From a virus: DNA of 29,312 nt. Positions 1 through 23,290 of this stretch are shown here, in pieces (the first letter of the stretch is position 1; every line of letters starts with the position of its first letter). The stretch is from IMG/VR virus record IMGVR_UViG_3300027977_000148, positions 1-29,312 of that record; one strand, 5' to 3'. Below the pieces are notes generated by a model, which was not told where the DNA came from, did not search any database, and saw only the letters and a list, made by a program, of their open reading frames with translations. The position numbers and the translations under genes were made by a program.

Positions 1-3000
1 TCAGTAATTATGGAGAGGGTATTTTTGTCGCTCTCTTTCGGAACTTTCACGGTCTTCTTCTGTGATCCCTTCGCCTTCCTGTACATGTCCGCCAAAAAAC
101 CGCTCGCCTCCCTGCCTTTCGGGACGAGTTCTTTCGTAAGTGTCTTATAGAGCTTTTCGTCTGTACCGCCACGAGCGAACGTAGACTCGTACGCCTCTAC
201 AAAGTATGCAGGATCATTCAGTCGTGCCGTATCCACTGTCTCGCCAGTGATTGTTCTGACGTACGGTTTGAAGCCTTCGGGAACGGTTATCGGAGTCGCA
301 CGGAGTATTTCGGTAAATGCCTTATCCACAATCGCCTGCTCCTCCTTCGTCATTTTGAGGTACGGGAATGGGTCATTGTTTTCTTGCGCCTCTTTAATAA
401 GTGCGTTCATTCTCGGAGTGTACGACTCATCGCTGTCCATTAGTCCTATTTGCTTCACCTCTTTCGCCGCCGCCTCAACGCGAGGAACCGTTACTTCCTT
501 TGCAACCTTTTCGTCCTTCTCTATGGCAACCACTTTACGCTTAGAACGCACGGCTTCTGCCGCAGTAACGCCTGATCCCGCGAATGGGTCAAGTACCACA
601 TCCCCTTCCTCGGTGGTCATTTCAATCAGGGCTTTCAGCATTTCCGCTGGCTTTTCCGTTTGGTATCCTTTCGGACGCACCAGCTTGAAGTTCAGATTTC
701 CGATTTTATCGGACATTCCACTCTGGTTGAAGACCAGTATACCCTCTGGCTCTATGATATTGCCCCGCATATTACGGACACGAGTAACGCCGTCCAATTG
801 GAGCTTCGTATATTCGCCGCGTCCGATAGGAGTGAACCCTTTAGTGGGGAATAGATCGTTGTACTTTTGCATGGCTTTGAGGCCACTCGCCGCCTGCGAG
901 TACATGTGAATGACGGGACTATCTTTTGTACGAAGAATGGTCTTTACGCTATCCAACAGTTTGTCGAAGTTGTCTACTGAAATGAGGTTGTATTTCACTC
1001 CCCTATTTCCGCCCTTCACGGCTGGAGTGTTATAAGGGATGTCGAGGAATACCATATCCGCCTTAAAACCCTGCTTGGCGAGCTTCGGAAGGGTAAGGAG
1101 CGCGTCTGCGGGGATAACGAACGCAACGTCTTGGTCGCCAACCTTGATCGTGTACACGCCGTCTGCCACTCTTTCAAAGTCTCCCTCCTTTGCGCCCACT
1201 CCGAGAATACGTCGAATGTTCGGCTCCAAAATACCTGTCTCATCGGCAACTTCTTTGATAGACGCTTTGCCCTTTTTCTGTATTGCGTCCTTCACTTTTT
1301 CCTTCTGGGTCTTCTTTGCAAGGTCAATGCGATGAGCACGCCAGATACCTTTGCGAGACTCCTCTGCAACCCATGTGCCGCCGTCAGTTTGTTCGAGCGA
1401 GGCGGCGTACTTTACAGCCTCCGCTTTGTCGTCAAACTCTACCGCTCCCCATTCCTGCACGTATTTCCATGCCTTTTCCGTGTAGTTACTTTTCTTTAAT
1501 TGTGGCTCTTTTTTGTCTTTTAGAGGCGTTTTAGACGATTTTTCGGCCGAAACGGGCTTATTTGCTCCACTTTTGACCGTATCCACCTGTTTTGCCACGA
1601 TGTCTTTGATACTGGAAGCGAACGACGTTTTGAGCGCAGTCGGGTCGGTGATTTGAATAGCGATGTCGTCTATGAGATCGCTCTGCTGTTCGTCAGTGAG
1701 TCCCAAGTCTGCGAAGTTCTGCTTAATATACCCGCCCAAGAATGTACGGAAGCTCTCTGCCTTCTTCGACATGTCTGCACTAAAGTTTTTCTCCGCCATT
1801 TTGAGCTGTGCTTGCTGATCCGCGAGTTCTTTTTTGAGTTCCTTCTTTGTTTGCGTACCGTCTTTTGCTCCCGCAATACTCTCTTTCAAACGCTCGATTT
1901 CGCTCACAATATCTTTCGTACCAGTCTCCATTTCTTCGGTGAGTGCAGTAAACTCCTCTTGCAAATCAGCAGGGGTCTTTTCGAGCACCTTATCGTCCAC
2001 ATCCGAGAGTGCCTTCTTCGTGTCGGCGAGTGTAGTCTTCTTTGCTACAACTGGCTTGGGAGCGGGTGTGGCCGTTTCGCGTGAAACCACGTCGGTAACA
2101 AGCGCAATAGCGTCTTCTGTTCCTATTTTACTGGAGAGTTCAAGTGCGACTTGGTTTGGACTTTTACCAGAGGAGAGTTCAGCTCGTACGGTTTCCTCCG
2201 TTGGAGTATTTCGTACGGTTTCAAATACCTCCTTTGTCGCCGTTGCCGACCGCTGGTTTTCTTCTTCAACTGCTCGCACTGCGTCCTGTACTCCCCTCTC
2301 ATCAGCGGCCGCTACCTTATCGAGAAACGCCTGCTTCTCGGTTACGGTTTTCAACTTGCTATACGCGTCAGTCCACTCCACGCCTAAATTGAGAGCCACC
2401 TGATCAAGATACTTTTCTCGTATCTTTTCTTCCCCAAATTGATTGATACGTCCGCCCGCTTGGAATATCACACCCATGACAGCTCCAATAAAGCCACTTT
2501 CCTGCGCCTTTGGATCAGAGAGTGCAAGTTCAAGCGACGAAAGGTCAGTAAGCCCCAGCGCACGCTGTTGCGCTCCGTATTGAAATACCTCCTCACCTCC
2601 CTCTGTCGCCCCTCCTACGGCAAGCGCGGCGGTTTCCATAAGGATCTTCGACATGATAGAGCCACTCCCCAGCTTCAAAGGAGAAAGCGCGAGTGCAACC
2701 TGTACTGCGTCAAGTCCTAAGAGTTTCATGTTATCCTCGAAGACCTGCCTTCCCGCGGCAATGGCTTCCTTTTCGCCCATGCCGTTGTGTTTTGCGTTTT
2801 TGTATGTTTCCTCTGCTTCTGCCGAACTCTCAAACGCTCGCATGGTTGTACCTCCTGTTACCGCTCCTGCCACGCCTGCCGCTACTTTAGCGAAGGTCGA
2901 AGATCCGAGGAGTGCCGAGACTGCATTCGATGTTGCGGCATAGGGAATAGCCGCCGCTTTCATAAAAGCAAGCGTAACTGGTGTATTCTCTGCAACAGTC

Positions 3001-3773
3001 GTGAGCCAGAAGTCAGGGTTCCCCATTTTGTCCAGCCCGAACTCCTGTGCAGAGGCCGCACGCGATCGTTCAGTTGAAAACGTCTCGCGCATTTGTTCTG
3101 AAAAGTCTGCAAAGAAGTCCCCCATTGCGTTGCTCTTTCCGTAAATAGAACGAGTCGCGAAGTTGAGAGGCGACGCAATCATAGTGTCAATGATGTTCGC
3201 TGTACCACGCCCAGAGAATGACTTACTAGCTTCCGTAAGATTGCCCGTGAGTTCTTGTGCAAGGAAGTCCAGTGTTTCACCTTGCGCTTCCCCACTTTCT
3301 ACCACATTTAGCCCTTCGGCCACTTCCCTAAACATCGTGGTTTCGGAGAGCTTGTTCGTGATTGTGTCGAAAAACGACTTGGAGCTGTCAAAGAGAAACT
3401 TCGCTGTATGCGTGCCAAAGGTATCTTTCTTACTCTCTACTACGTCGCGCGGTGCTGGCTTTTCTTCGTTATAGAGAGACTCTGCCATTCGTCTCTGTGC
3501 CGCGGCTTTTTCTTCGCCTGTGGTCAGCCCCTCGGCCGCTTCTTGGAAGAACTTTGTGTTACCGAGCACACCGAGTCCCCTGTCGCCCATTATTGCGCTT
3601 CCGATTGATTTGAGTGTGTTGCCGACCGCGCTCGTAAAGCCAGTATCAAACTCCACCTGATCTTTGTAGGCGGGATGTTTGGCAATGATTTTCTCCGCAA
3701 GTTGCTTGTCGTCTACACTGGCATATTGCGGGTACTTTGCCTTGATTTGCTTTGCAAAGTCGGTGTACTTCAT
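1..3773 (-). CDS. Giant polyvalent/ejection-type protein with winged helix and DNA methyltransferase domain (3' end outside window)
   Basis: An open frame of at least 1257 codons starts at the ATG ending at 3773, two bases after the LysM gene stops, and runs off the left edge. The N-terminus (about residues 1-45, MKYTDFAKQIKAKYPQY) resembles the short opening module of large phage virion proteins. Long helical and Ala/Glu/Lys-rich stretches follow. About residues 824-876 look like a winged helix (KASIKEVADETGILEPNIRR, then a short hairpin). About residues 880-1090 look like a beta-class amino-methyltransferase: a motif IV variant DIPYN at residue 911 (usually DPPY), a TEKP segment, then motif I DPFAGSG at residue 1062 and VVAIEKDE. 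Order IV then I defines the beta class (N6-adenine or N4-cytosine). Being last in the tail module suggests an injected virion protein that protects incoming DNA; that role is inferred. The DIPY variant leaves activity uncertain. Confidence 0.8.
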   Translation of the reverse strand, partial: MKYTDFAKQIKAKYPQYASVDDKQLAEKIIAKHPAYKDQVEFDTGFTSAVGNTLKSIGSAIMGDRGLGVLGNTKFFQEAAEGLTTGEEKAAAQRRMAESLYNEEKPAPRDVVESKKDTFGTHTAKFLFDSSKSFFDTITNKLSETTMFREVAEGLNVVESGEAQGETLDFLAQELTGNLTEASKSFSGRGTANIIDTMIASPLNFATRSIYGKSNAMGDFFADFSEQMRETFSTERSRAASAQEFGLDKMGNPDFWLTTVAENTPVTLAFMKAAAIPYAATSNAVSALLGSSTFAKVAAGVAGAVTGGTTMRAFESSAEAEETYKNAKHNGMGEKEAIAAGRQVFEDNMKLLGLDAVQVALALSPLKLGSGSIMSKILMETAALAVGGATEGGEEVFQYGAQQRALGLTDLSSLELALSDPKAQESGFIGAVMGVIFQAGGRINQFGEEKIREKYLDQVALNLGVEWTDAYSKLKTVTEKQAFLDKVAAADERGVQDAVRAVEEENQRSATATKEVFETVRNTPTEETVRAELSSGKSPNQVALELSSKIGTEDAIALVTDVVSRETATPAPKPVVAKKTTLADTKKALSDVDDKVLEKTPADLQEEFTALTEEMETGTKDIVSEIERLKESIAGAKDGTQTKKELKKELADQQAQLKMAEKNFSADMSKKAESFRTFLGGYIKQNFADLGLTDEQQSDLIDDIAIQITDPTALKTSFASSIKDIVAKQVDTVKSGANKPVSAEKSSKTPLKDKKEPQLKKSNYTEKAWKYVQEWGAVEFDDKAEAVKYAASLEQTDGGTWVAEESRKGIWRAHRIDLAKKTQKEKVKDAIQKKGKASIKEVADETGILEPNIRRILGVGAKEGDFERVADGVYTIKVGDQDVAFVIPADALLTLPKLAKQGFKADMVFLDIPYNTPAVKGGNRGVKYNLISVDNFDKLLDSVKTILRTKDSPVIHMYSQAASGLKAMQKYNDLFPTKGFTPIGRGEYTKLQLDGVTRVRNMRGNIIEPEGILVFNQSGMSDKIGNLNFKLVRPKGYQTEKPAEMLKALIEMTTEEGDVVLDPFAGSGVTAAEAVRSKRKVVAIEKDEKVAKEVTVPRVEAAAKEVKQIGLMDSDESYTPRMNALIKEAQENNDPFPYLKMTKEEQAIVDKAFTEILRATPITVPEGFKPYVRTITGETVDTARLNDPAYFVEAYESTFARGGTDEKLYKTLTKELVPKGREASGFLADMYRKAKGSQKKTVKVPKESDKNTLSIIT

Positions 3774-3775
3774 AG

Positions 3776-5191
3776 TTATTCTCCTAGTATACCAAGCGGA
3801 TCGTCTGCACTCCCACCTTCTCCACCGATGTCATAGGAGTATTCCTCGTCTTCTTTGTTGTAGAAAATGTTGTCCCAATACTCCTTCCCTTTTTCGCCGT
3901 ACTTCTTCACGAACGCCTTGCGCTTTGTTTCGGCTTCGGCCGCACTGGTAAAGGTGTCAGGAACATCGCCTTGCATAGCAGACTGGTTCTTCTTATCGGT
4001 GTTTACTACAGCCGCGTCAGCCCATGACTTTGCGGCAGAGGCATTCCGAGCACCTGTGAGAGCGTTCGACGCTTGAATATCAGACTCTTTCTTCTTAATA
4101 TCGAGTTTATCTTTCGTTGCCGTCATTATGGACGTTTCGAGCGTCGAGTAGACGGTCGCGTAGTCAAGCCCCGTTTGCTGTGCGAGTTTCGTAATAAACG
4201 CGTCGCGTTCCTCTGGAGACATACCCTCATAATCGCCCGCATACTGTGGAGCGAGCGCGGCAAGACGCTCCTTCATTTTAGTTACTTGCGCCGCATGTTT
4301 TGTTTCTTCTTCCTTACGCAAATCACGGAGCAGTTTGTACTGCGACTCTGCTTCGCGTTCAACGTCCTCCAGTTGTGCGCGCATACTGCTCTCGACTTTT
4401 TCGAGGTCGTCCAGCTTGTCGCGAAGGAGTCCGCTTGCGCCCGCGTCTCGTGCAGACTTCGCCTGTGCGATGAGTGAGTTTCTCTGATTATCGAGTTCAG
4501 AAATCTTGTCAGACGCTTCTTGCTCTCGTAGCGAAATAGCGTCGCGGAAAGCGATCGGCGTATACTGTCCGCCGTTTCCAAGTCCATACGCTTTTACACG
4601 GTCAATGTTCAGTTGGTTGATACGACGCTGTTCGTCGGTGCGTTTATCATAACTTGTATTGATACGGTCAATCGTTGCCTGTGTGGTTGCGTCTACAGCG
4701 GCAAGAGAAGTGGTGTACAGATTTTCGTATTCTTTCTTTCGAGTTGTCGCCTCGACTTCAAATTGTGCCGCCTGATCCTTTTCCCACTTATTGAGTTTAT
4801 CGAGCAAAGGATCGCCCGTTGTTTGAACCTCTCCCGCCGCGTCTTTTTTTTCTCCTGTTGCAAATGGAGTTTGCTCGGTGGTTTTAGTTTCTGTCTTGGT
4901 TTTACCAAGTACACTATCAGAAAAAGCAGTATCTATGCCGCTTATTTTGTCGCTATCATCGCGAAACTGTTGCTCGTTGTCTTTTGAAGACACGACGGGA
5001 CTGCCTTGTTGGAGTGTCTTAATCGCGTTCGGGTCGTAATTGCCGAGATTGATTTCCTCTCCCTCCCTAATCAAGTCAAAGTTGCCGCTTGGCACACTGT
5101 TGATACCTGCGGCTTTGTAGTTAGCAAACCCGTAGTTTTGAGAGATTTTGTTCAGGGTGTCCCCCTTTTTTACTTTATAGACGAAAGCCAT
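3776..5191 (-). CDS. LysM-domain coiled-coil virion protein
   Basis: A 471-residue protein. Residues about 4-50 form a LysM repeat (YKVKKGDTLNKISQNYGFAN, then an isolated INLG end), a peptidoglycan-binding fold. The middle, about residues 130-330, is charged and rich in Glu, Lys, Gln and Arg with heptad-like spacing, so a long coiled coil is likely. The C-terminus is acidic and Gly/Asp-rich. No catalytic wall-hydrolase motif is visible. It lies 2 bases upstream of the giant methyltransferase protein and 4 bases after the glycine-rich fibre. A tail or ejection protein that contacts the cell wall during DNA entry fits this position, but that is inferred from LysM and context. Confidence 0.7.
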   Translation of the reverse strand: MAFVYKVKKGDTLNKISQNYGFANYKAAGINSVPSGNFDLIREGEEINLGNYDPNAIKTLQQGSPVVSSKDNEQQFRDDSDKISGIDTAFSDSVLGKTKTETKTTEQTPFATGEKKDAAGEVQTTGDPLLDKLNKWEKDQAAQFEVEATTRKKEYENLYTTSLAAVDATTQATIDRINTSYDKRTDEQRRINQLNIDRVKAYGLGNGGQYTPIAFRDAISLREQEASDKISELDNQRNSLIAQAKSARDAGASGLLRDKLDDLEKVESSMRAQLEDVEREAESQYKLLRDLRKEEETKHAAQVTKMKERLAALAPQYAGDYEGMSPEERDAFITKLAQQTGLDYATVYSTLETSIMTATKDKLDIKKKESDIQASNALTGARNASAAKSWADAAVVNTDKKNQSAMQGDVPDTFTSAAEAETKRKAFVKKYGEKGKEYWDNIFYNKEDEEYSYDIGGEGGSADDPLGILGE

Positions 5192-5195
5192 AGGG

Positions 5196-7178
5196 TTACA
5201 TGTATGTTATGACGATGATGAGTCCGCTACCGCCAGCCGCACCTGCGCCCGACGTTGTTTCTGACGCTCCACCGCCTCCACCGCCAGAGCCGTTTATTCC
5301 AGCACCGCCGATAGTACCCGCTCCAGCCGAACCGTTTGCCGCACCTCCGCCACCACCTGTTCCGCCATAGAGCTTACTGCTGTTCGAGTTTCCAATAGTA
5401 CCTACAGCACCACCAGCGGCGACAAAGTTTGTGATGAAACCACCGCCGACACCAGGGGCTTTAACTGTTCCAACAGAGTTCAGTCCTCCGCCTGCTCCAC
5501 CACCACGAGCAGAACGTAGTGCGGCTGTATCGGTTCCTGCCGCGCCGCCTGCGTCCGCCGCCGTGCCTGTACCTCCCATACCGCCTGCTTCAAGCAAGTC
5601 TCCGTTTTTGTCAGCCGCACCTCCCTCACCCCCCACTGATGTCGAAACCGTACCACCCGCACCTCCCAATCCTGGCTGTGCCGCAAGGAGTGTTGCTGTT
5701 CCAAACGAAGTCGCTCCGCCCGTCGAACCTGCGTTTCCGTCGTTATCGGAACCTGTAACAGTCGCTCCGCCCGCTCCACCTGCGCCGATAGTAACGGTTT
5801 CAGTTGCGCCAAGACCTGCGGCAAGAAACGCCTTATGTGCAAACGAACCGCCCCCGCCCCCTCCACCACCACCCGCAGTCGTTCCGTCAGCTTCACGACG
5901 GCCTGATCCACCGCCTCCACCTGCACCCCACATATACACTTCGACAGTGAGTGCTCCCGAAGGCTTCGTCCATGTCCCTGATGATGTAAATGTTTGAATA
6001 TCAACCGTTGCAGGTGCAACTGCCGCCTGACTCTGCATTTGAAAGTCAGTACCGTCGTACACCACTTCAACGATTTGCCCTGCCTCGATGTCTCCTGTTG
6101 CGAGATCTGCGTCATTGAGCTTCTTGATAGCGAGAGCGGAAAGACCAGAGACAGCGAGTGTTGCCGCCCCCGTATTTGCTACATCCGCAAGGAAACGGAA
6201 GTGCATACCCGTAACGTATGCGGTGATTGCGGGGGTGATAGTTATTGCATACGAATCCGTACCAACGGCAGAGGCCGCATACCACGCTGTGCCCGCTTCC
6301 AGTTTTTCAATGAGATCCTGCTGGTTTTCGGTAATCTGCTGGTCAAATCGTGGCTTCAAATAGAACTTCGTTGTGGTGTGGGCATATCCAATGGATACCT
6401 CCTTTGTTCCTGGGGTCGTAGAGAATCCGCCCGCAGTGTTTGAAGCGTAGTATTTCGTATTGGCAGTAAAGATCGCACTTGCCGCTTCGTGTGTTCCACC
6501 AACCGTAACACCGCCTGCAATAGCTCCTCCGTCGGTTCCCGCGCCTCGCGTAATTCCAAGCATTGAGTTTTCAACTTGTGCCGCGGTATCCGCGTCGGCA
6601 GGCTTCCACTCCCCGTCCGCGACATCGAGATATACGAATTGGTCTACGGTGAGAACTGCGCCACCCGTCGCAGGGACTACGATAGGAGTGAGTGTCAGCG
6701 TTCCAATAACAGCCGCGTCGAGCTGGCTCTTTCGCACCAACTCGTTTGCCGCGCTTGCGTCTGCGCTCGATATTGGAGCAAGTGTAAATGTCTGGAGAGC
6801 CGCCCATGTTTGTGCGTTATTAAGATTTCCGAATTGTGAAACAGTGAGCGGGTCGTTCGTTACAATTACTTCTGCGCCCGATGAAAAGGCATTTCCTGTG
6901 GAAGATCCCGCGTATGGAGTAGTGGGGTTTAAGTTGCGACCGCTTGAAGCAACTGTGAGCGTCGCCGTACCGTCCACTGCTGTAGAAATGGCCGAAAACT
7001 TGATCATTTCTATCGTATCTCCTTGCTTGATTACGATAACGCCCCACGCACCAAAGTTCGCGAGTGTAAGATTGTTTTCCTTACTGTCTTGGAGCTTCCG
7101 AAGGACGACTGACGTTGCTGTAGTCGTCAGTGGAACTTTAAGATAGGTCTTTAATGCTTTTACAATGTATTGCGCCAT
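5196..7178 (-). CDS. Tail fibre/receptor-binding protein with large glycine-rich C-terminal domain
   Basis: A 660-residue protein. The N-terminal 150 residues include a linker typical of fibres (NELVRKSQLDAAV). Residues 308-381 are a beta module shared, at about 62 percent identity by eye, with the fibre at 11820-12827. From about residue 392 the pattern FTSSGTWTKP opens a glycine-rich domain with many runs of G, ending SGLIIVITYM. Such domains occur at the tips of phage fibres, where glycine-rich loops bind receptors. The start is the ATG ending at 7178. A TGATACAAT motif lies 6 bases upstream, so the gene may have its own promoter. Assignment as a receptor-binding protein comes from composition and location. 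Confidence 0.75.
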   Translation of the reverse strand: MAQYIVKALKTYLKVPLTTTATSVVLRKLQDSKENNLTLANFGAWGVIVIKQGDTIEMIKFSAISTAVDGTATLTVASSGRNLNPTTPYAGSSTGNAFSSGAEVIVTNDPLTVSQFGNLNNAQTWAALQTFTLAPISSADASAANELVRKSQLDAAVIGTLTLTPIVVPATGGAVLTVDQFVYLDVADGEWKPADADTAAQVENSMLGITRGAGTDGGAIAGGVTVGGTHEAASAIFTANTKYYASNTAGGFSTTPGTKEVSIGYAHTTTKFYLKPRFDQQITENQQDLIEKLEAGTAWYAASAVGTDSYAITITPAITAYVTGMHFRFLADVANTGAATLAVSGLSALAIKKLNDADLATGDIEAGQIVEVVYDGTDFQMQSQAAVAPATVDIQTFTSSGTWTKPSGALTVEVYMWGAGGGGGSGRREADGTTAGGGGGGGGGSFAHKAFLAAGLGATETVTIGAGGAGGATVTGSDNDGNAGSTGGATSFGTATLLAAQPGLGGAGGTVSTSVGGEGGAADKNGDLLEAGGMGGTGTAADAGGAAGTDTAALRSARGGGAGGGLNSVGTVKAPGVGGGFITNFVAAGGAVGTIGNSNSSKLYGGTGGGGGAANGSAGAGTIGGAGINGSGGGGGGASETTSGAGAAGGSGLIIVITYM

Positions 7179-7208: not shown

Positions 7209-9023
7209 CTACTTACTAATGAACAGGTCGTTCCCTATTTTTCGCGGAGCGGCTTGTTCGTCAATCCACCACGCGAGCAAATGGAACTCGTTGTCTATTC
7301 CCGTGATCGTTATTTTGAGTCCGAAGTCGAACCACGATACCGCGTTGAACTTCGAGAACACAGGTACGCGGCGAAGCTCTGACACTTCCATGTCCGCTCC
7401 CGCCCAGCTTCGATCGGCGTATGGGTGTGTTGCCCAGCTCACGTCGTCATTGACCGCATAGGAGGTAACAGTGGAGCCGTCTATCTCGAAATTGGTGGTT
7501 GTTTTGCCTGCCTCCTCCTCGAAATACTGGTCTACTGTGGCAACGGTATCCACCGTCATGCGAGCCGAAAGACCGATCATAGTGTGCTGTTTGTAGCGGA
7601 GTGGGTGGTCGCCATGAAGGTATCCGAAAGCGATTATTGCCTCGATAGGAGTATCCAGGTCGTCTCGCCCTGAAAATATCTTGTACGTCTCGTTTTGGGC
7701 GCTGTGGTGGCCGTACTTTATGCCGTCTATAATGCTCATACAGTTGATTGGAAGCCCTTGTGGTGGCTGAAAATACCCCTCCACCAAGTCCAAAATGATC
7801 ATAGTGCTGTCCACAGGACAAATGAGGTAAATGGCGCGTTCAACGTAGTACACACGCACGTCAGAGAGGTCTACACGCTGGAGCAGTCCTTCCACGTCGT
7901 CAGAAATGAGCCGTATTTCGTCCACGCCCAACACCTCGTTCGAGGTTACTCGCTGGAGCGTGCTGTCCTGCGCGACATAAATGATGTCTCCCTTGTACTT
8001 GGCACAGGCCATAGGAAGTGCACCTTTGTTTTCTCCCGTTTCAAACTTCTCCACGTCCACCCACAAACTGTAGGCATTCACTTCGAGCGACTTAGTTACC
8101 TTGTACCAGTCGTCGTTGTCGGAGATCCAGAGCACATTTTTGCGTGCCACCATTGCGGTAAAGTTCCCGTCGAGGCGCATAAAAATAGGGGTAAGGGCAG
8201 TACGACTCCCCGCGGAAGGCATGACAAAGTTGAGTCCAGTAGCGAGCACATACGTTTCGATATGAGAAAAGTACACGCTCGTGCTGTTGTAGTTGGCAAC
8301 GACAATGTGGTTCTTGAACGAGTACACCACGTCTATATCAAACCCAGCCGAGATCACGTCAGACACCTTCGTGGGTTTTGTAATGACTACATCACCCGCG
8401 ACAGGGACAGGGTTCGGGGTCGTGCTTAGTGTCAAATCCTGTGCGGCGGTAGGATCGTTGGTGTAGGTGTATTCGTCGGTATCATCAACGTCCCCATTCC
8501 CGTCGAGGGAGTACACTATGACTGTCTGCGTGGTTACGTTGCCCGCGTCAAACCCCTCCTGTGCAAGCGTATTGTCCCCCGCGATCGTAATAACATCGAG
8601 TGCGTAACTCTCCACCTCCACAATCGCCCCGTTCCATTGGTAAATAGCAGTTGAACCGTCCACAAAAAAGAGACGCTTCTTCACAATGGAGCCATTATTA
8701 TCCACCCACGTTGCAAAAAATACGCGTACCGTATCAGCGTCGAGCGCAGTGTAGATCGTGTACCACTTGCTGTTGTATTTAACTTGCACTGTCTGACCGT
8801 GCACACGAATAGGACGTACACCGCCAAGCGCGTCTTTCCATACAAACTCGGAGTGGACTGCTTCGGCTACCGTTGCCAGTGTCCCGTCGTTTACCAATCC
8901 TCCGCGTGTCGTGATCTTCCCTTTGTTCACGACGACGTTCTTGGAAGGATATGCGAGGTTTTGTGGCGGGATTTTGGTAATGTCCGCACCCTCCATGTAA
9001 CCCTTAAAGTCCTCTACAATCAT
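7209..9023 (-). CDS. Probable tail nozzle/stabilisation protein (podovirus-like)
   Basis: A 604-residue protein if started at the ATG ending at 9023 (MIVEDFKGYMEGADITKIPP), 1 base after the upstream stop; an in-frame upstream extension is not needed. The N-terminal region (SKNVVVNKGKITTRGG) resembles the opening of beta-propeller tail-hub proteins of short-tailed phages, in which a list of named values is mapped onto a repeated beta fold. The rest is rich in beta-strand patterns (Val/Ile/Tyr alternation, many Asp-Gly turns) without enzyme motifs. Its place next to the 391-residue protein and the fibres supports a tail-nozzle or stabilisation role. It is a distant resemblance only, so the specific role is uncertain. 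Confidence 0.55.
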   Translation of the reverse strand: MIVEDFKGYMEGADITKIPPQNLAYPSKNVVVNKGKITTRGGLVNDGTLATVAEAVHSEFVWKDALGGVRPIRVHGQTVQVKYNSKWYTIYTALDADTVRVFFATWVDNNGSIVKKRLFFVDGSTAIYQWNGAIVEVESYALDVITIAGDNTLAQEGFDAGNVTTQTVIVYSLDGNGDVDDTDEYTYTNDPTAAQDLTLSTTPNPVPVAGDVVITKPTKVSDVISAGFDIDVVYSFKNHIVVANYNSTSVYFSHIETYVLATGLNFVMPSAGSRTALTPIFMRLDGNFTAMVARKNVLWISDNDDWYKVTKSLEVNAYSLWVDVEKFETGENKGALPMACAKYKGDIIYVAQDSTLQRVTSNEVLGVDEIRLISDDVEGLLQRVDLSDVRVYYVERAIYLICPVDSTMIILDLVEGYFQPPQGLPINCMSIIDGIKYGHHSAQNETYKIFSGRDDLDTPIEAIIAFGYLHGDHPLRYKQHTMIGLSARMTVDTVATVDQYFEEEAGKTTTNFEIDGSTVTSYAVNDDVSWATHPYADRSWAGADMEVSELRRVPVFSKFNAVSWFDFGLKITITGIDNEFHLLAWWIDEQAAPRKIGNDLFISK

Positions 9024-9024
9024 A

Positions 9025-10200
9025 TTATGTCTCGATACTCTCCGTATTGTCCTGCAACTGACCAAATGCAGTGTCCATACTGATGTCTATTTCAGGAGAT
9101 TTGCTATAAGAAAGCGGTGCTTCGCTTGACGGGTGGCTACTCCAATACGCCTCATACTTGCGGCGCAGTTGCCCTTCAAAACGCTTGCTGGCCTGCCCGT
9201 CTACTGCGTCAAATGTCGAAGACTGCGTTACCAAGAGGCACAGCTCGTAGTGCAAAATACCCGATGTATCACGATCCACATTTATCTTGTCGTCCTGTGA
9301 ATAAGAGACGGTGCTCTGCCAAAATGCGCCCGTCGTACCACTAATGAAGACACGGTTCGAGTAGTATTCAAGATAATACGGGTTAAACTTCTGGAGTGTA
9401 AACTTGTCGAATATCAGCGTCATTGTCGTACCTGACGCAGTTGTACCGATGATTTTCCACGACGTAATCGTGTTAGTGGGACTGCCCGATGTCGTTTTGT
9501 TTGCCATATCGAACTTCACGATATTCCAGCCGTCAATGAAGTAGTCCCCGATACTATCTGCTGTCGAAATAACTTTGTGGTAGTTCCCCACACTCGAAAG
9601 AAGCTGTATCTCGATCGAAACGAGATTATCTGCCGTCGGAATGTACGTTGGCAGAAGTACCACGCCTTTGAGATAGTCCTCGATGTCGAGGGATGTTGAA
9701 AGAGTGTCGGAGAGCGTTACTCCCGCGTCAGTAAACGTCGCCTGTATTGACCCACTTCCTACGATGAAGTTGTGGCTGTTGAGTGCGGCACTTCCTCCTG
9801 TCTTCGTTCCGAGCGTCTCCATTGTATCAATGGTGAGAGAAGCCACTGTCTGATTGTGTCGTACCACGAGAAACCGCTGACCGTTGATGTACTCAATGGT
9901 ATAGGTATTTTCGTCGAGGTTTCTATAGAACACCGCCGAAGGAACATAGCTGAACTTCCGCAAGCCGTCGTTCGAGTACACGTCCGAAGGAACGAGCACA
10001 TCCGTCGGGCAATAGTACATATACACTTCCTGCGCCAGGCCGCCGTAAATAGGCACTCTGCGTTTGAGTGTTTCTGGGCGGCAGTTGTCCATGAGGTTTT
10101 CAACTGCTCGGCGGATGAGAATATCCCAATCTACCGAGAGTGAATTGCCCCCCTCGAACTCCCCCTGTACGTCTTCGACGAGTGTACTTGCTTCAATCAT
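9025..10200 (-). CDS. Virion structural protein, possible head-tail adaptor or tail tube protein
   Basis: A 391-residue protein. The first 60 residues are mainly helical (DWDILIRRAVENLMDNCRPE), followed by beta-rich segments. Around residues 195-270 there is a jelly-roll-like stretch (YFIDGWNIVKFDM, then SWKIIGTTASGTTMTLIFDK) of the sort found in carbohydrate-binding modules. The C-terminal 60 residues return to helix (RFEGQLRRKYEAYWSSH). Helical ends flanking a beta domain and a position beside the nozzle-like gene suggest a tail adaptor. I do not recognise a named family. Confidence 0.5.
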   Translation of the reverse strand: MIEASTLVEDVQGEFEGGNSLSVDWDILIRRAVENLMDNCRPETLKRRVPIYGGLAQEVYMYYCPTDVLVPSDVYSNDGLRKFSYVPSAVFYRNLDENTYTIEYINGQRFLVVRHNQTVASLTIDTMETLGTKTGGSAALNSHNFIVGSGSIQATFTDAGVTLSDTLSTSLDIEDYLKGVVLLPTYIPTADNLVSIEIQLLSSVGNYHKVISTADSIGDYFIDGWNIVKFDMANKTTSGSPTNTITSWKIIGTTASGTTMTLIFDKFTLQKFNPYYLEYYSNRVFISGTTGAFWQSTVSYSQDDKINVDRDTSGILHYELCLLVTQSSTFDAVDGQASKRFEGQLRRKYEAYWSSHPSSEAPLSYSKSPEIDISMDTAFGQLQDNTESIET

Positions 10201-21107: not shown

Positions 21108-22799
21108 CTACATCGAGGAGTAGTTCTGTCCTGCCCCCGCGACAGACTCGACTCGCTGTGCCTCCTGTGCGCGGCGCAACCATTCAGCGTTCTCCTTCGT
21201 TTCGAGCTGTGCTTTGGTGAGGTGTACAGGCATAGTTGGCTCGTCTTTGAAGAAGGTCATGCAGGCCGCGTCAAAACGATCGGGAGAAAACCCGTACTCT
21301 TTCTTAAAAGTAACCTTGTCCATGAGCATGACGCGCCCTTGTGCGTCCCGCTTGTACTTCATTTTCTCCATTTCCCGTAGCCATTCCTTGCCGTTGTTCG
21401 TGATGATGATACCCCCCTTAGAGAGCCATTCCCGCAATAGCCACCCCAGCTCCGATCGGTATGTGTGGTATTTGTCTTTCACTTCCTCTCTCGGCTTGTC
21501 AGTCAGGATTGCCATAACATTCTCCCCCATTTTGGTCTGTATATTAGCCACCACCTTCGCCCCCAAACCAAACGCCTCGACTCCAATATCGTTACTGGAG
21601 CAGTTGTATGCGTCGCGTATCGTCTCTATCTTTCGAGCCAGGTCTTTCTCGTGTGAGGTTGTTTCATTGAGCACTTCTTTGAGGTAAATAGTATCCCTTA
21701 TGTGCACAATAGAGCGGTCGCGCCCCTTACCCGCAGGATCTACTCCAATCACGCCGCGGTTGATTATCTGTCCTTGCTCTGCTTCAAACAAAATGGTCAT
21801 GTTGGCAAAAAGCGGTATCCAGCCCTTGTCGTCCATTTCAGCAAGCCCCGCAAACTCTCCGTCCACGCGAATAAGCACCTCGTCGCTACCCTTCCCGTAG
21901 TCGGCTTCCATTTTCTCGATATAGCCTTCTTCAACGATCGGCGAGTGTCGTGTGTTGAATGAGAGCTGTGTGAATGCCGCGCCTTTCTTGTGGCTATCGA
22001 AAAACTCCCCCTCGGTACGGGTCGGGTTGCTCGTGTAGATAACGATGTAGTTATACCCCGTCAGTGCTCCCTTCATAACCTCGAACACTTTGTTGTGGAC
22101 TGCACTCGCCTCATCAACGAGAACGAGGATGAACTTACCGTGGAGTCCCGCCAGTGCCTCTGGCTTTTCAGGTCGGGCAACCCTCGCTCGAAGAAACCAG
22201 TCTTTCTCTCCCGATACTCGAACGAAGTCGTCGAGCACTTCGATGTTGTCTTGGAGATACTGTGGCAGTTTCATGCGCCAGTACGAAAGCTCTTTGAGGA
22301 AAATATCTTTGAGCTGGTCTTCGGTGTTTGCTGTTACTCCAATCTGTGAGCCGAAATAGCAAATGAGGAAGTGAAGCGATACGACCGAGAGGAAGCTCGT
22401 CTTCCCTATACCGTGTCCCGACTTTATGCTGATCCACCGCTTTACTGCGTCGAATGAGTCCTTGTCGAAAGTGTTGATCGCTCTGTTGTATGCCTCTAGC
22501 TCGACTGTCTGTTGCCATGTAAAACGCGTGCCTTTGTACTTCTTGAACAGTCCCCTGCTCTGGTTCTTGAACATATCCACCGTGTAAAAGGCAAGGTCTG
22601 GGTATGTCAGGTTGCCGTCCACATCGAACAAAATAGTGGAACGCTCTATGCCGAAGGTGTCTTTGTAAGTGATTGCTTTGCCCCGCAACTCATCAATAGG
22701 GTCGCTCGGCCGCATATTCATACACTCGTCTGCAAACAGAAACACATCCTTGCTCCATAGCTCTATCTGTCGCAGGTTGTTCTTAACTGTGGGGTTCAT
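21108..22799 (-). CDS. Large terminase subunit (TerL)
   Basis: A 563-residue protein starting at the ATG ending at 22799 (MNPTVKNNLRQIELW); an upstream in-frame extension overlaps the tmRNA and is rejected. It packages DNA into the procapsid: an N-terminal ATPase and a C-terminal nuclease. Visible motifs, by residue: Walker A SGHGIGKT (127-134), Walker B FILVLVDE (223-230), a TSN coupling motif (256-258), and nuclease residues GVDPAG (Asp354), VEAFG (Glu408) and PDRFD (Asp507, Asp510). All main catalytic positions are present, so the enzyme looks intact. It starts 1 base after the 33-residue zinc protein. Confidence 0.93.
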   Translation of the reverse strand: MNPTVKNNLRQIELWSKDVFLFADECMNMRPSDPIDELRGKAITYKDTFGIERSTILFDVDGNLTYPDLAFYTVDMFKNQSRGLFKKYKGTRFTWQQTVELEAYNRAINTFDKDSFDAVKRWISIKSGHGIGKTSFLSVVSLHFLICYFGSQIGVTANTEDQLKDIFLKELSYWRMKLPQYLQDNIEVLDDFVRVSGEKDWFLRARVARPEKPEALAGLHGKFILVLVDEASAVHNKVFEVMKGALTGYNYIVIYTSNPTRTEGEFFDSHKKGAAFTQLSFNTRHSPIVEEGYIEKMEADYGKGSDEVLIRVDGEFAGLAEMDDKGWIPLFANMTILFEAEQGQIINRGVIGVDPAGKGRDRSIVHIRDTIYLKEVLNETTSHEKDLARKIETIRDAYNCSSNDIGVEAFGLGAKVVANIQTKMGENVMAILTDKPREEVKDKYHTYRSELGWLLREWLSKGGIIITNNGKEWLREMEKMKYKRDAQGRVMLMDKVTFKKEYGFSPDRFDAACMTFFKDEPTMPVHLTKAQLETKENAEWLRRAQEAQRVESVAGAGQNYSSM

Positions 22800-22800
22800 A

Positions 22801-22902
22801 CTATTTCTTTGGTGCGCAAAGGTCGCATACGATGATATTACTCCCGTCGTTTCCGCAACGGATACACTCTCCCCCTCGTTCTTTGTATATTCTCCTCTGC
22901 AT
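22801..22902 (-). CDS. Tiny zinc-knuckle protein
   Basis: A 33-residue protein, MQRRIYKERGGECIRCGNDG, then a second CxxC pair (VCDLCAPKK). Two Cys-x2-Cys pairs form a classic zinc knuckle. Its stop is followed by T and the terminase ATG (TAGTATG), and its start lies 6 bases after the tmRNA 3' end. Its tight fit between these two elements supports it being real. It could be coupled to terminase translation; function unknown. Confidence 0.55.
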   Translation of the reverse strand: MQRRIYKERGGECIRCGNDGSNIIVCDLCAPKK

Positions 22903-22908
22903 AAAATG

Positions 22909-23290
22909 TGGAGTAGGCGGGTATTGCCCCCGCGTCCGATACTGTTACTAAGCCCTGCGTGTACGAGACATAGCGAACCTTTATTGCGTGCGGGTTGGAG
23001 GGTTCGCACACCTCCCCGCCCCTGCGCTGATTTGCTACTCTTGACGATTACACCAGCACTATCGCCCTAGCACTACGCTGTTATATGACAACTCGTACCC
23101 CCGCATAGACGGGACACAAGCCGCTTCGATTACGCGAACTGGAGATCCCTTTCGAGATCGCCTGCTGTAACGTAAAACGGAGAAGGTATGAGTGCTTTTG
23201 CAGTTACCTTGTGCCCACTTTTAGGAATGTGGTGCGGTTTCCGCCTCGTGGCATGACTTTTCAAAGTACCGTCGAAACTATATCTACCCC
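22909..23290 (-). ncRNA. ssrA: tmRNA (transfer-messenger RNA)
   Basis: A 382-base RNA on the minus strand. The 5' end GGGGTAG (23290-23284) pairs with CTACTCC (22916-22910); the third pair is G-T, the G3-U70 alanine identity pair. TTCGACGG follows, as in known tmRNAs. Helix 2 pairs CGGTACT (23271-23265) with AGTATCG (22943-22937). The 3' part CGGACGCGGG... CCCGCC lines up with the E. coli ssrA 3' end, but the T loop (22922-22928) reads GGCAATA where TTCAACT is expected. A resume codon GCA (23201-23199), preceded by GTAACT, opens a 23-codon tag starting AKALIPSPFY and ending LERDLQFA, stop TAA at 23132-23130. A GGAGG/CCTCC hairpin with its loop able to pair to GCGAACC (22973-22979) forms a late pseudoknot. 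The CCA end is not fully encoded (A then CA). tmRNA rescues stalled ribosomes and tags the peptide for proteolysis. Confidence 0.92.
23130..23201 (-). other. tmRNA tag reading frame (23 codons plus stop)
   Basis: Begins with GCA at 23201-23199, in the sequence context GTAACTGCAAAAG, matching the position of the resume codon in E. coli (ATAGTCGCAAACG). It opens AKALIPSPFY and ends LERDLQFA before TAA. Bacterial tags usually end in LAA-type residues; an end in AFA is known in some Mollicutes. The reading frame is chosen by alignment to the resume codon, so it is probable, not proven. Confidence 0.6.

Follow-up and report, generated by a model that had tools for sequence, protein, structure and literature searches.

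A predicted winged helix and beta-class DNA methyltransferase module within a giant, polyvalent-type protein of a tailed phage

The locus and its giant open reading frame

The window (the whole stretch of 29,312 bases analysed here, i.e. positions 1-29,312 of IMG/VR virus record IMGVR_UViG_3300027977_000148) carries a phage gene block in which nearly all genes, from the terminase at 21-23 kb to a giant gene at the contig edge, lie on the minus strand (Table 1). The block ends with genes for a conserved protein of 391 aa, one of 618 aa (without PDB matches by profile), a glycine-rich fibre protein, a LysM-type protein and the giant gene, which follows the LysM gene after 2 bp. The same order is found in G001 and G008, two of the relatives obtained by scans with the module described below and with the terminase, in agreement with the earlier sequence-only reading that this is the last gene of the tail module.

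Table 1. Coordinates of the features at the locus (residue numbers refer to the giant protein)
Feature	Position	Strand	Basis or remark
Giant gene, putatively polyvalent; N-terminal 1257 residues	3..3773	-	3' part past the contig end; homologues complete
All-helical Gly/Ala-rich domain, residues 181-480	2334..3233	-	Shared with giant proteins; AlphaFold
Winged helix-turn-helix (wHTH), residues 823-887	1113..1307	-	AlphaFold model elements and alignments
Beta-class DNA methyltransferase core, residues 888-1109	447..1112	-	Pfam, PHROGs, PDB profile, predicted fold
Motif IV, D-I-P-Y, residues 911-914	1032..1043	-	Translation and alignments
Invariant G-N-R after motif IV, residues 922-924	1002..1010	-	Alignments
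Motif X region, GYQTEKP, residues 1036-1042	648..668	-	Alignment and PDB profile
Motif I, SAM-binding DPFAGSG, residues 1062-1068	570..590	-	Alignment and PDB profile
C-terminal visible stretch, residues 1110-1257	3..446	-	No match in the libraries and relatives searched
LysM-type protein, directly upstream of the giant gene	3776..5191	-	Syntenic in G001 and G008
Glycine-rich tail-fibre-like protein (PF21722, phrog_863)	5196..7178	-	Pfam, PHROGs, synteny
Conserved protein of the presumed tail block (618 aa)	7209..9065	-	Syntenic in relatives
Terminase large subunit (P1 PacB-like), phage clade anchor	21108..23009	-	Listed start probably too early

The structural block contains a second glycine-rich fibre-type protein (PF21722; 11010-11813, minus strand) besides the one at 5196-7178. 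A tmRNA-like gene (22906-23290, minus strand) is found immediately upstream of the terminase and overlaps with the start of the over-long terminase ORF; it matches RF00023 over the full model length, scoring 61 bits (gathering score 47), and is not called by ARAGORN. In two relatives (L006 and L009) a tRNA is found near the terminase in its place.

From its ATG start at position 3773 down to position 3, the giant ORF runs through 1257 codons without a stop and is open at the contig edge, where the last full codon is followed by two bases, GA-, and the frame therefore does not end there. The protein of more than 1250 residues that had been read from the letters is thus encoded by an uninterrupted frame, with no frameshift in 3..3773, but the window covers only about the first third of it, since complete homologues measure 3,345 and 4,510 aa. 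The former is encoded in G001 (90-bp terminal direct repeat) as one ORF across the contig junction and is 40% identical to the window protein over 941 residues, and the latter in G008 (123-bp terminal repeat). Judged by these far longer syntenic homologues, the window ORF covers the N-terminal portion of a giant product. The window itself was considered as a circular genome, which was rejected for want of a terminal repeat. That the contig stops within the gene could be taken to mean that the assembly had produced the long frame artefactually or had fused unrelated genes into a chimera. This is hardly credible and can be regarded as already refuted, because independent contigs show the same arrangement: G001 keeps the N-terminal region, the wHTH and the methyltransferase in the same order over those 941 residues, and both G001 and G008 have complete giant ORFs on contigs with terminal repeats.

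Residues 181-480 form an all-helical domain in the AlphaFold model (pLDDT 81, pTM 0.77), with conserved R-x-x-E and TEGGEEV motifs. Giant proteins encoded on 15 viral contigs share this domain; one of them is that of G001, and the others lack the methyltransferase module, so that inheritance of the two, helical region and module, seems to be independent. In Pfam the domain has no match, and in the PDB no significant fold match, including any solved ejection protein. Of the helical ejection-protein sections proposed earlier, the helical character is thus supported by the model and the ejection identity is not, and because of the missing fold match the term "ejection protein" derives from position and composition. 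Possibly, the all-helical stretch is a domain of ejected proteins that has yet to be named.

The winged helix-methyltransferase module and its family

Downstream of the helical region, a Pfam match to PF01555 (N6_N4_Mtase) at residues 1029-1092 (E 6.7e-18), PHROGs DNA methyltransferase families across residues 902-1137 (phrog_67, E 5.7e-19) and profile matches in the PDB to CcrM, M1.HpyAVI and M.RsrI (E down to 2.5e-12) all point to a methyltransferase, at a level well beyond chance. An AlphaFold model of residues 815-1125, built on an alignment of 17 related modules (pLDDT 84, pTM 0.75), shows a wHTH with three helices and a two-stranded wing (H9-20, H25-32, H36-43, E60-64, E67-73), followed by an alternating alpha/beta methyltransferase core. 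With Foldseek, the top PDB matches to this model were the A. vaga cytosine-N4 methyltransferase, CcrM and M1.HpyAVI (E 2e-11 to 3e-10; TM-score on target 0.5 to 0.78). Motifs IV, X and I follow one another in the beta-class order and a Rossmann methyltransferase fold is predicted, so that both the fused winged helix and the intact-looking beta-class core of the sequence-only reading, for which a structure prediction had been proposed as the check, were recovered. Compared with the beta-class N6-adenine and N4-cytosine enzymes of PF01555 (CcrM, M1.HpyAVI, M.RsrI and the A. vaga N4 enzyme), the module has the predicted fold, the IV-X-I order, the SAM motif and the catalytic D..Y in common, at ~14-21% identity in the fold alignments, while it differs in having DIPY instead of DPPY or SPPY, an extra invariant GNR, the wHTH on its N-terminal side and its embedding in a giant protein.

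Beta-class methyltransferases usually, though not absolutely, carry (D/S)PP(Y/F/W) at motif IV; the DIPY of the window falls outside this pattern, with D and Y kept and the first P replaced. The module was found in 20 contigs besides the window, 18 of them viral (16 distinct module sequences) and two belonging to an Omnitrophota MAG. In 18 of the 20 it lies within long ORFs, whose lengths range from 1,047 aa (G001, truncated where the contig stops) to 4,637 aa or more, the remaining two being a large phage contig in which it stands alone (L045, 312 aa) and one where it is cut by the contig end (L046). Across the family, window included, motif IV reads DIPY in 12 of 21 sequences, DPAY in seven, and DPPY and DAPY in one each, while the 17 aligned modules are invariant in its D and Y, in the GNR that follows and, within motif I, in the aspartate and the key glycines. 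The earlier description of DIPY as unusual is therefore right with respect to the usual DPPY and wrong within this family, where it is the commonest form; it is also given as motif IV of HindIII-type methyltransferases (PMC12294265). These enzymes (e.g. M.PsaI) resemble the module in this tetrapeptide, on which the likeness rests, but they are solo enzymes of restriction-modification systems.

Being the commonest motif IV of a family in which D, Y and GNR do not vary, DIPY is no sign of decay. The variability of the motif (DIPY, DPPY, DPAY, DAPY) could still be taken to mean that the module is catalytically dead and has a purely structural role, binding DNA or SAM. This is very unlikely, given the constancy of these residues and of the motif I glycines and aspartate in 17 sequences, the report of DIPY as a catalytic motif IV in HindIII-type enzymes (PMC12294265) and strong purifying selection. 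The latter is indicated by a dN/dS of ~0.10 for the module between two near-alike copies (L114 and L115); for other module pairs synonymous sites are saturated, with pN at 0.25-0.31. As far as such comparisons tell, the module is under purifying selection.

Outside these contigs, relatives are distant. A close-relative scan with the whole window protein as query gave no matches, annotated phages yielded only generic low-identity methyltransferase matches, and an initial genome scan, in which five modules served as queries, returned no hits. A second genome scan returned the two Omnitrophota MAG contigs and two solo methyltransferases with DIPY and GGNR in Campylobacterota MAGs, which are too few to name a host. 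The plasmid matches listed are annotated as ordinary DNA methyltransferases, and the one that was opened, from a Malaciobacter mytili plasmid, is a solo enzyme (36% identical).

Complete homologues and the polyvalent architecture

LPD1 is present in the homologues of G001, G008, G009 and G006. The G001 homologue further contains ART-PolyVal and a sub-threshold LPD5, and those of G008 and G009 a gamma-class Eco57I-like methyltransferase with GNPPY and a SNF2 helicase, the G008 protein thereby holding both kinds of methyltransferase (the beta-class module and the gamma-class enzyme). Other module-bearing proteins carry LPD38 (L036, L037 and L049) or, in G002, an InPase together with a DNA clamp domain, and HExxH motifs occur in several of the homologous giant proteins. 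G009 (terminase ~61% identical) has, at the corresponding position, a gene for a protein of 4,247 aa without the beta-class module, by which comparison the module is an optional insert in giant proteins. The visible 1257 residues of the window, whose own C-terminus lies beyond the contig, contain no polyvalent-specific domain by Pfam and no NPPY or NPPF; SNF2 helicase is absent from this visible part (the contig ending there) and, by Pfam, from G001, and is present in G008.

The window ORF joins several unrelated domains (helical domain, wHTH and methyltransferase) in one very long chain, and its giant syntenic homologues carry LPD1, ART-PolyVal, HExxH and a gamma-class methyltransferase with SNF2 helicase, from which the product is predicted to be a large polyvalent protein, encoded last in a structural gene block, as the sequence-only reading had held. 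These are among the domains (LPDs, ART-PolyVal, MPTase and others) that Iyer et al. (2017, PMC5512222) assign to polyvalent proteins, which (with P1 DarB as the methyltransferase archetype) are likewise giant multi-domain late proteins; the homologues match this type in LPD1, LPD38, ART-PolyVal, InPase and HExxH, and in the combination of gamma-class methyltransferase and SNF2 helicase in G008. According to Iyer et al., polyvalent methyltransferases mostly belong to one gamma-class group (EcoKI/TaqI-like, NPPY/F), with LPD36 and an SF2 helicase fused to it in nearly all cases (PMC5512222). The window enzyme, in contrast, is of the beta class with DIPY instead of the NPP(Y/F) of the DarB-type dyad, is preceded by a winged helix and has no helicase directly attached. 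No description of a beta-class methyltransferase within polyvalent proteins was found in open-access text (for Iyer et al., the main article), and since published ones are mostly gamma class with a helicase, the methyltransferase class and its wHTH partner appear to be new for polyvalent proteins; rare non-gamma exceptions may have been seen by Iyer et al., whose wording is "mostly" (PMC5512222).

In G002 (L023:5248-19998), a giant ORF (at least 4,917 aa) combines the wHTH-methyltransferase module, a DNA polymerase III beta-clamp domain, an InPase and a SNF2 helicase, with a second, gamma-type methyltransferase that seemingly has NIPF instead of NPPY.

Proposed delivery and role

The reading that we favour, with some reservation, is that this giant multi-domain late protein of a tailed phage would be packaged with the genome into the virion and ejected into the host at infection. 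Packaging or passage would be the task of the helical N-terminal region. The wHTH-methyltransferase module would bind to the DNA as it enters and add a methyl to an amino group, probably N6 of adenine and less probably N4 of cytosine, ahead of cleavage by host restriction enzymes. What the analysis establishes is the ORF, the predicted fold, the motifs, the family, purifying selection, late-gene synteny and the polyvalent architecture of the homologues; that the enzyme is active, which base it modifies, and that the protein sits in the virion, is ejected and counters restriction is what we infer. Virion delivery and anti-restriction would follow from synteny and from the precedent of two proteins, P1 DarB and the N4 virion RNA polymerase. 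DarB is reportedly ejected into the host. Iyer et al. describe it as a component of the head, protecting DNA in cis, and place polyvalent proteins beside virion genes (PMC5512222). Phage N4 ejects its virion RNA polymerase, a giant beads-on-a-string protein of ~3,500 residues (PMC12633501), which, compared by description, resembles the present protein in build but is an RNA polymerase and not a methyltransferase. With these two, both halves of the idea (delivery and protection) have natural precedents. Against this reading stand the departure of DIPY, DPAY and DAPY from DPPY, the helical domain without a fold match and the existence of solo modules; because the module occurs alone in phage contig L045 and has distant solo DIPY relatives in Campylobacterota, it seems to be useful without virion delivery as well.

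The methyltransferase might instead act late, on new phage DNA before packaging, thereby imprinting protection, in which case the protein or its enzymatic part need not be ejected. A gene in the late block would indeed be expressed while progeny DNA is packaged, and a standalone phage methyltransferase of the same family exists (L045), but for this purpose a solo enzyme would suffice, and the fusion of the homologues to LPD, ART, peptidase-like and helicase domains is the pattern that Iyer et al. tie to delivery at entry (PMC5512222), which makes late imprinting rather unlikely. It is more doubtful still that the module methylates host DNA, altering host expression or masking host sites as a take-over effector instead of a shield. 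The winged helix is often a sequence-reading domain and the ART-PolyVal of the G001 homologue is a host-modifying kind of domain, but the nearest characterised virion methyltransferase protein, P1 DarB, protects DNA in cis (PMC5512222).

Provided that the module is delivered and active, such phages would bring more than one class of DNA-modifying enzyme into the cell with the genome, the DarB-type route of restriction evasion would be widened, and a compact enzyme (~300 residues) with an unusual catalytic tetrapeptide would be available for recombinant testing. A more tentative and on balance doubtful extension is that the wHTH and beta-class methyltransferase form a mobile cassette, with its own motif IV variants, that is swapped among giant virion-delivered proteins; in G008, one ejected chain might then provide two independent methylations (by the beta-class module and the gamma-class methyltransferase-helicase) that shield the genome against different restriction systems.

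The two Omnitrophota contigs (L114 and L115; JAJVIE010000015.1 and JAJVIE010000008.1) are phage-like and come from one MAG, with their near-alike modules in ORFs of ~2,700 residues; their presence there is possibly a hint to the host, or possibly misbinning.
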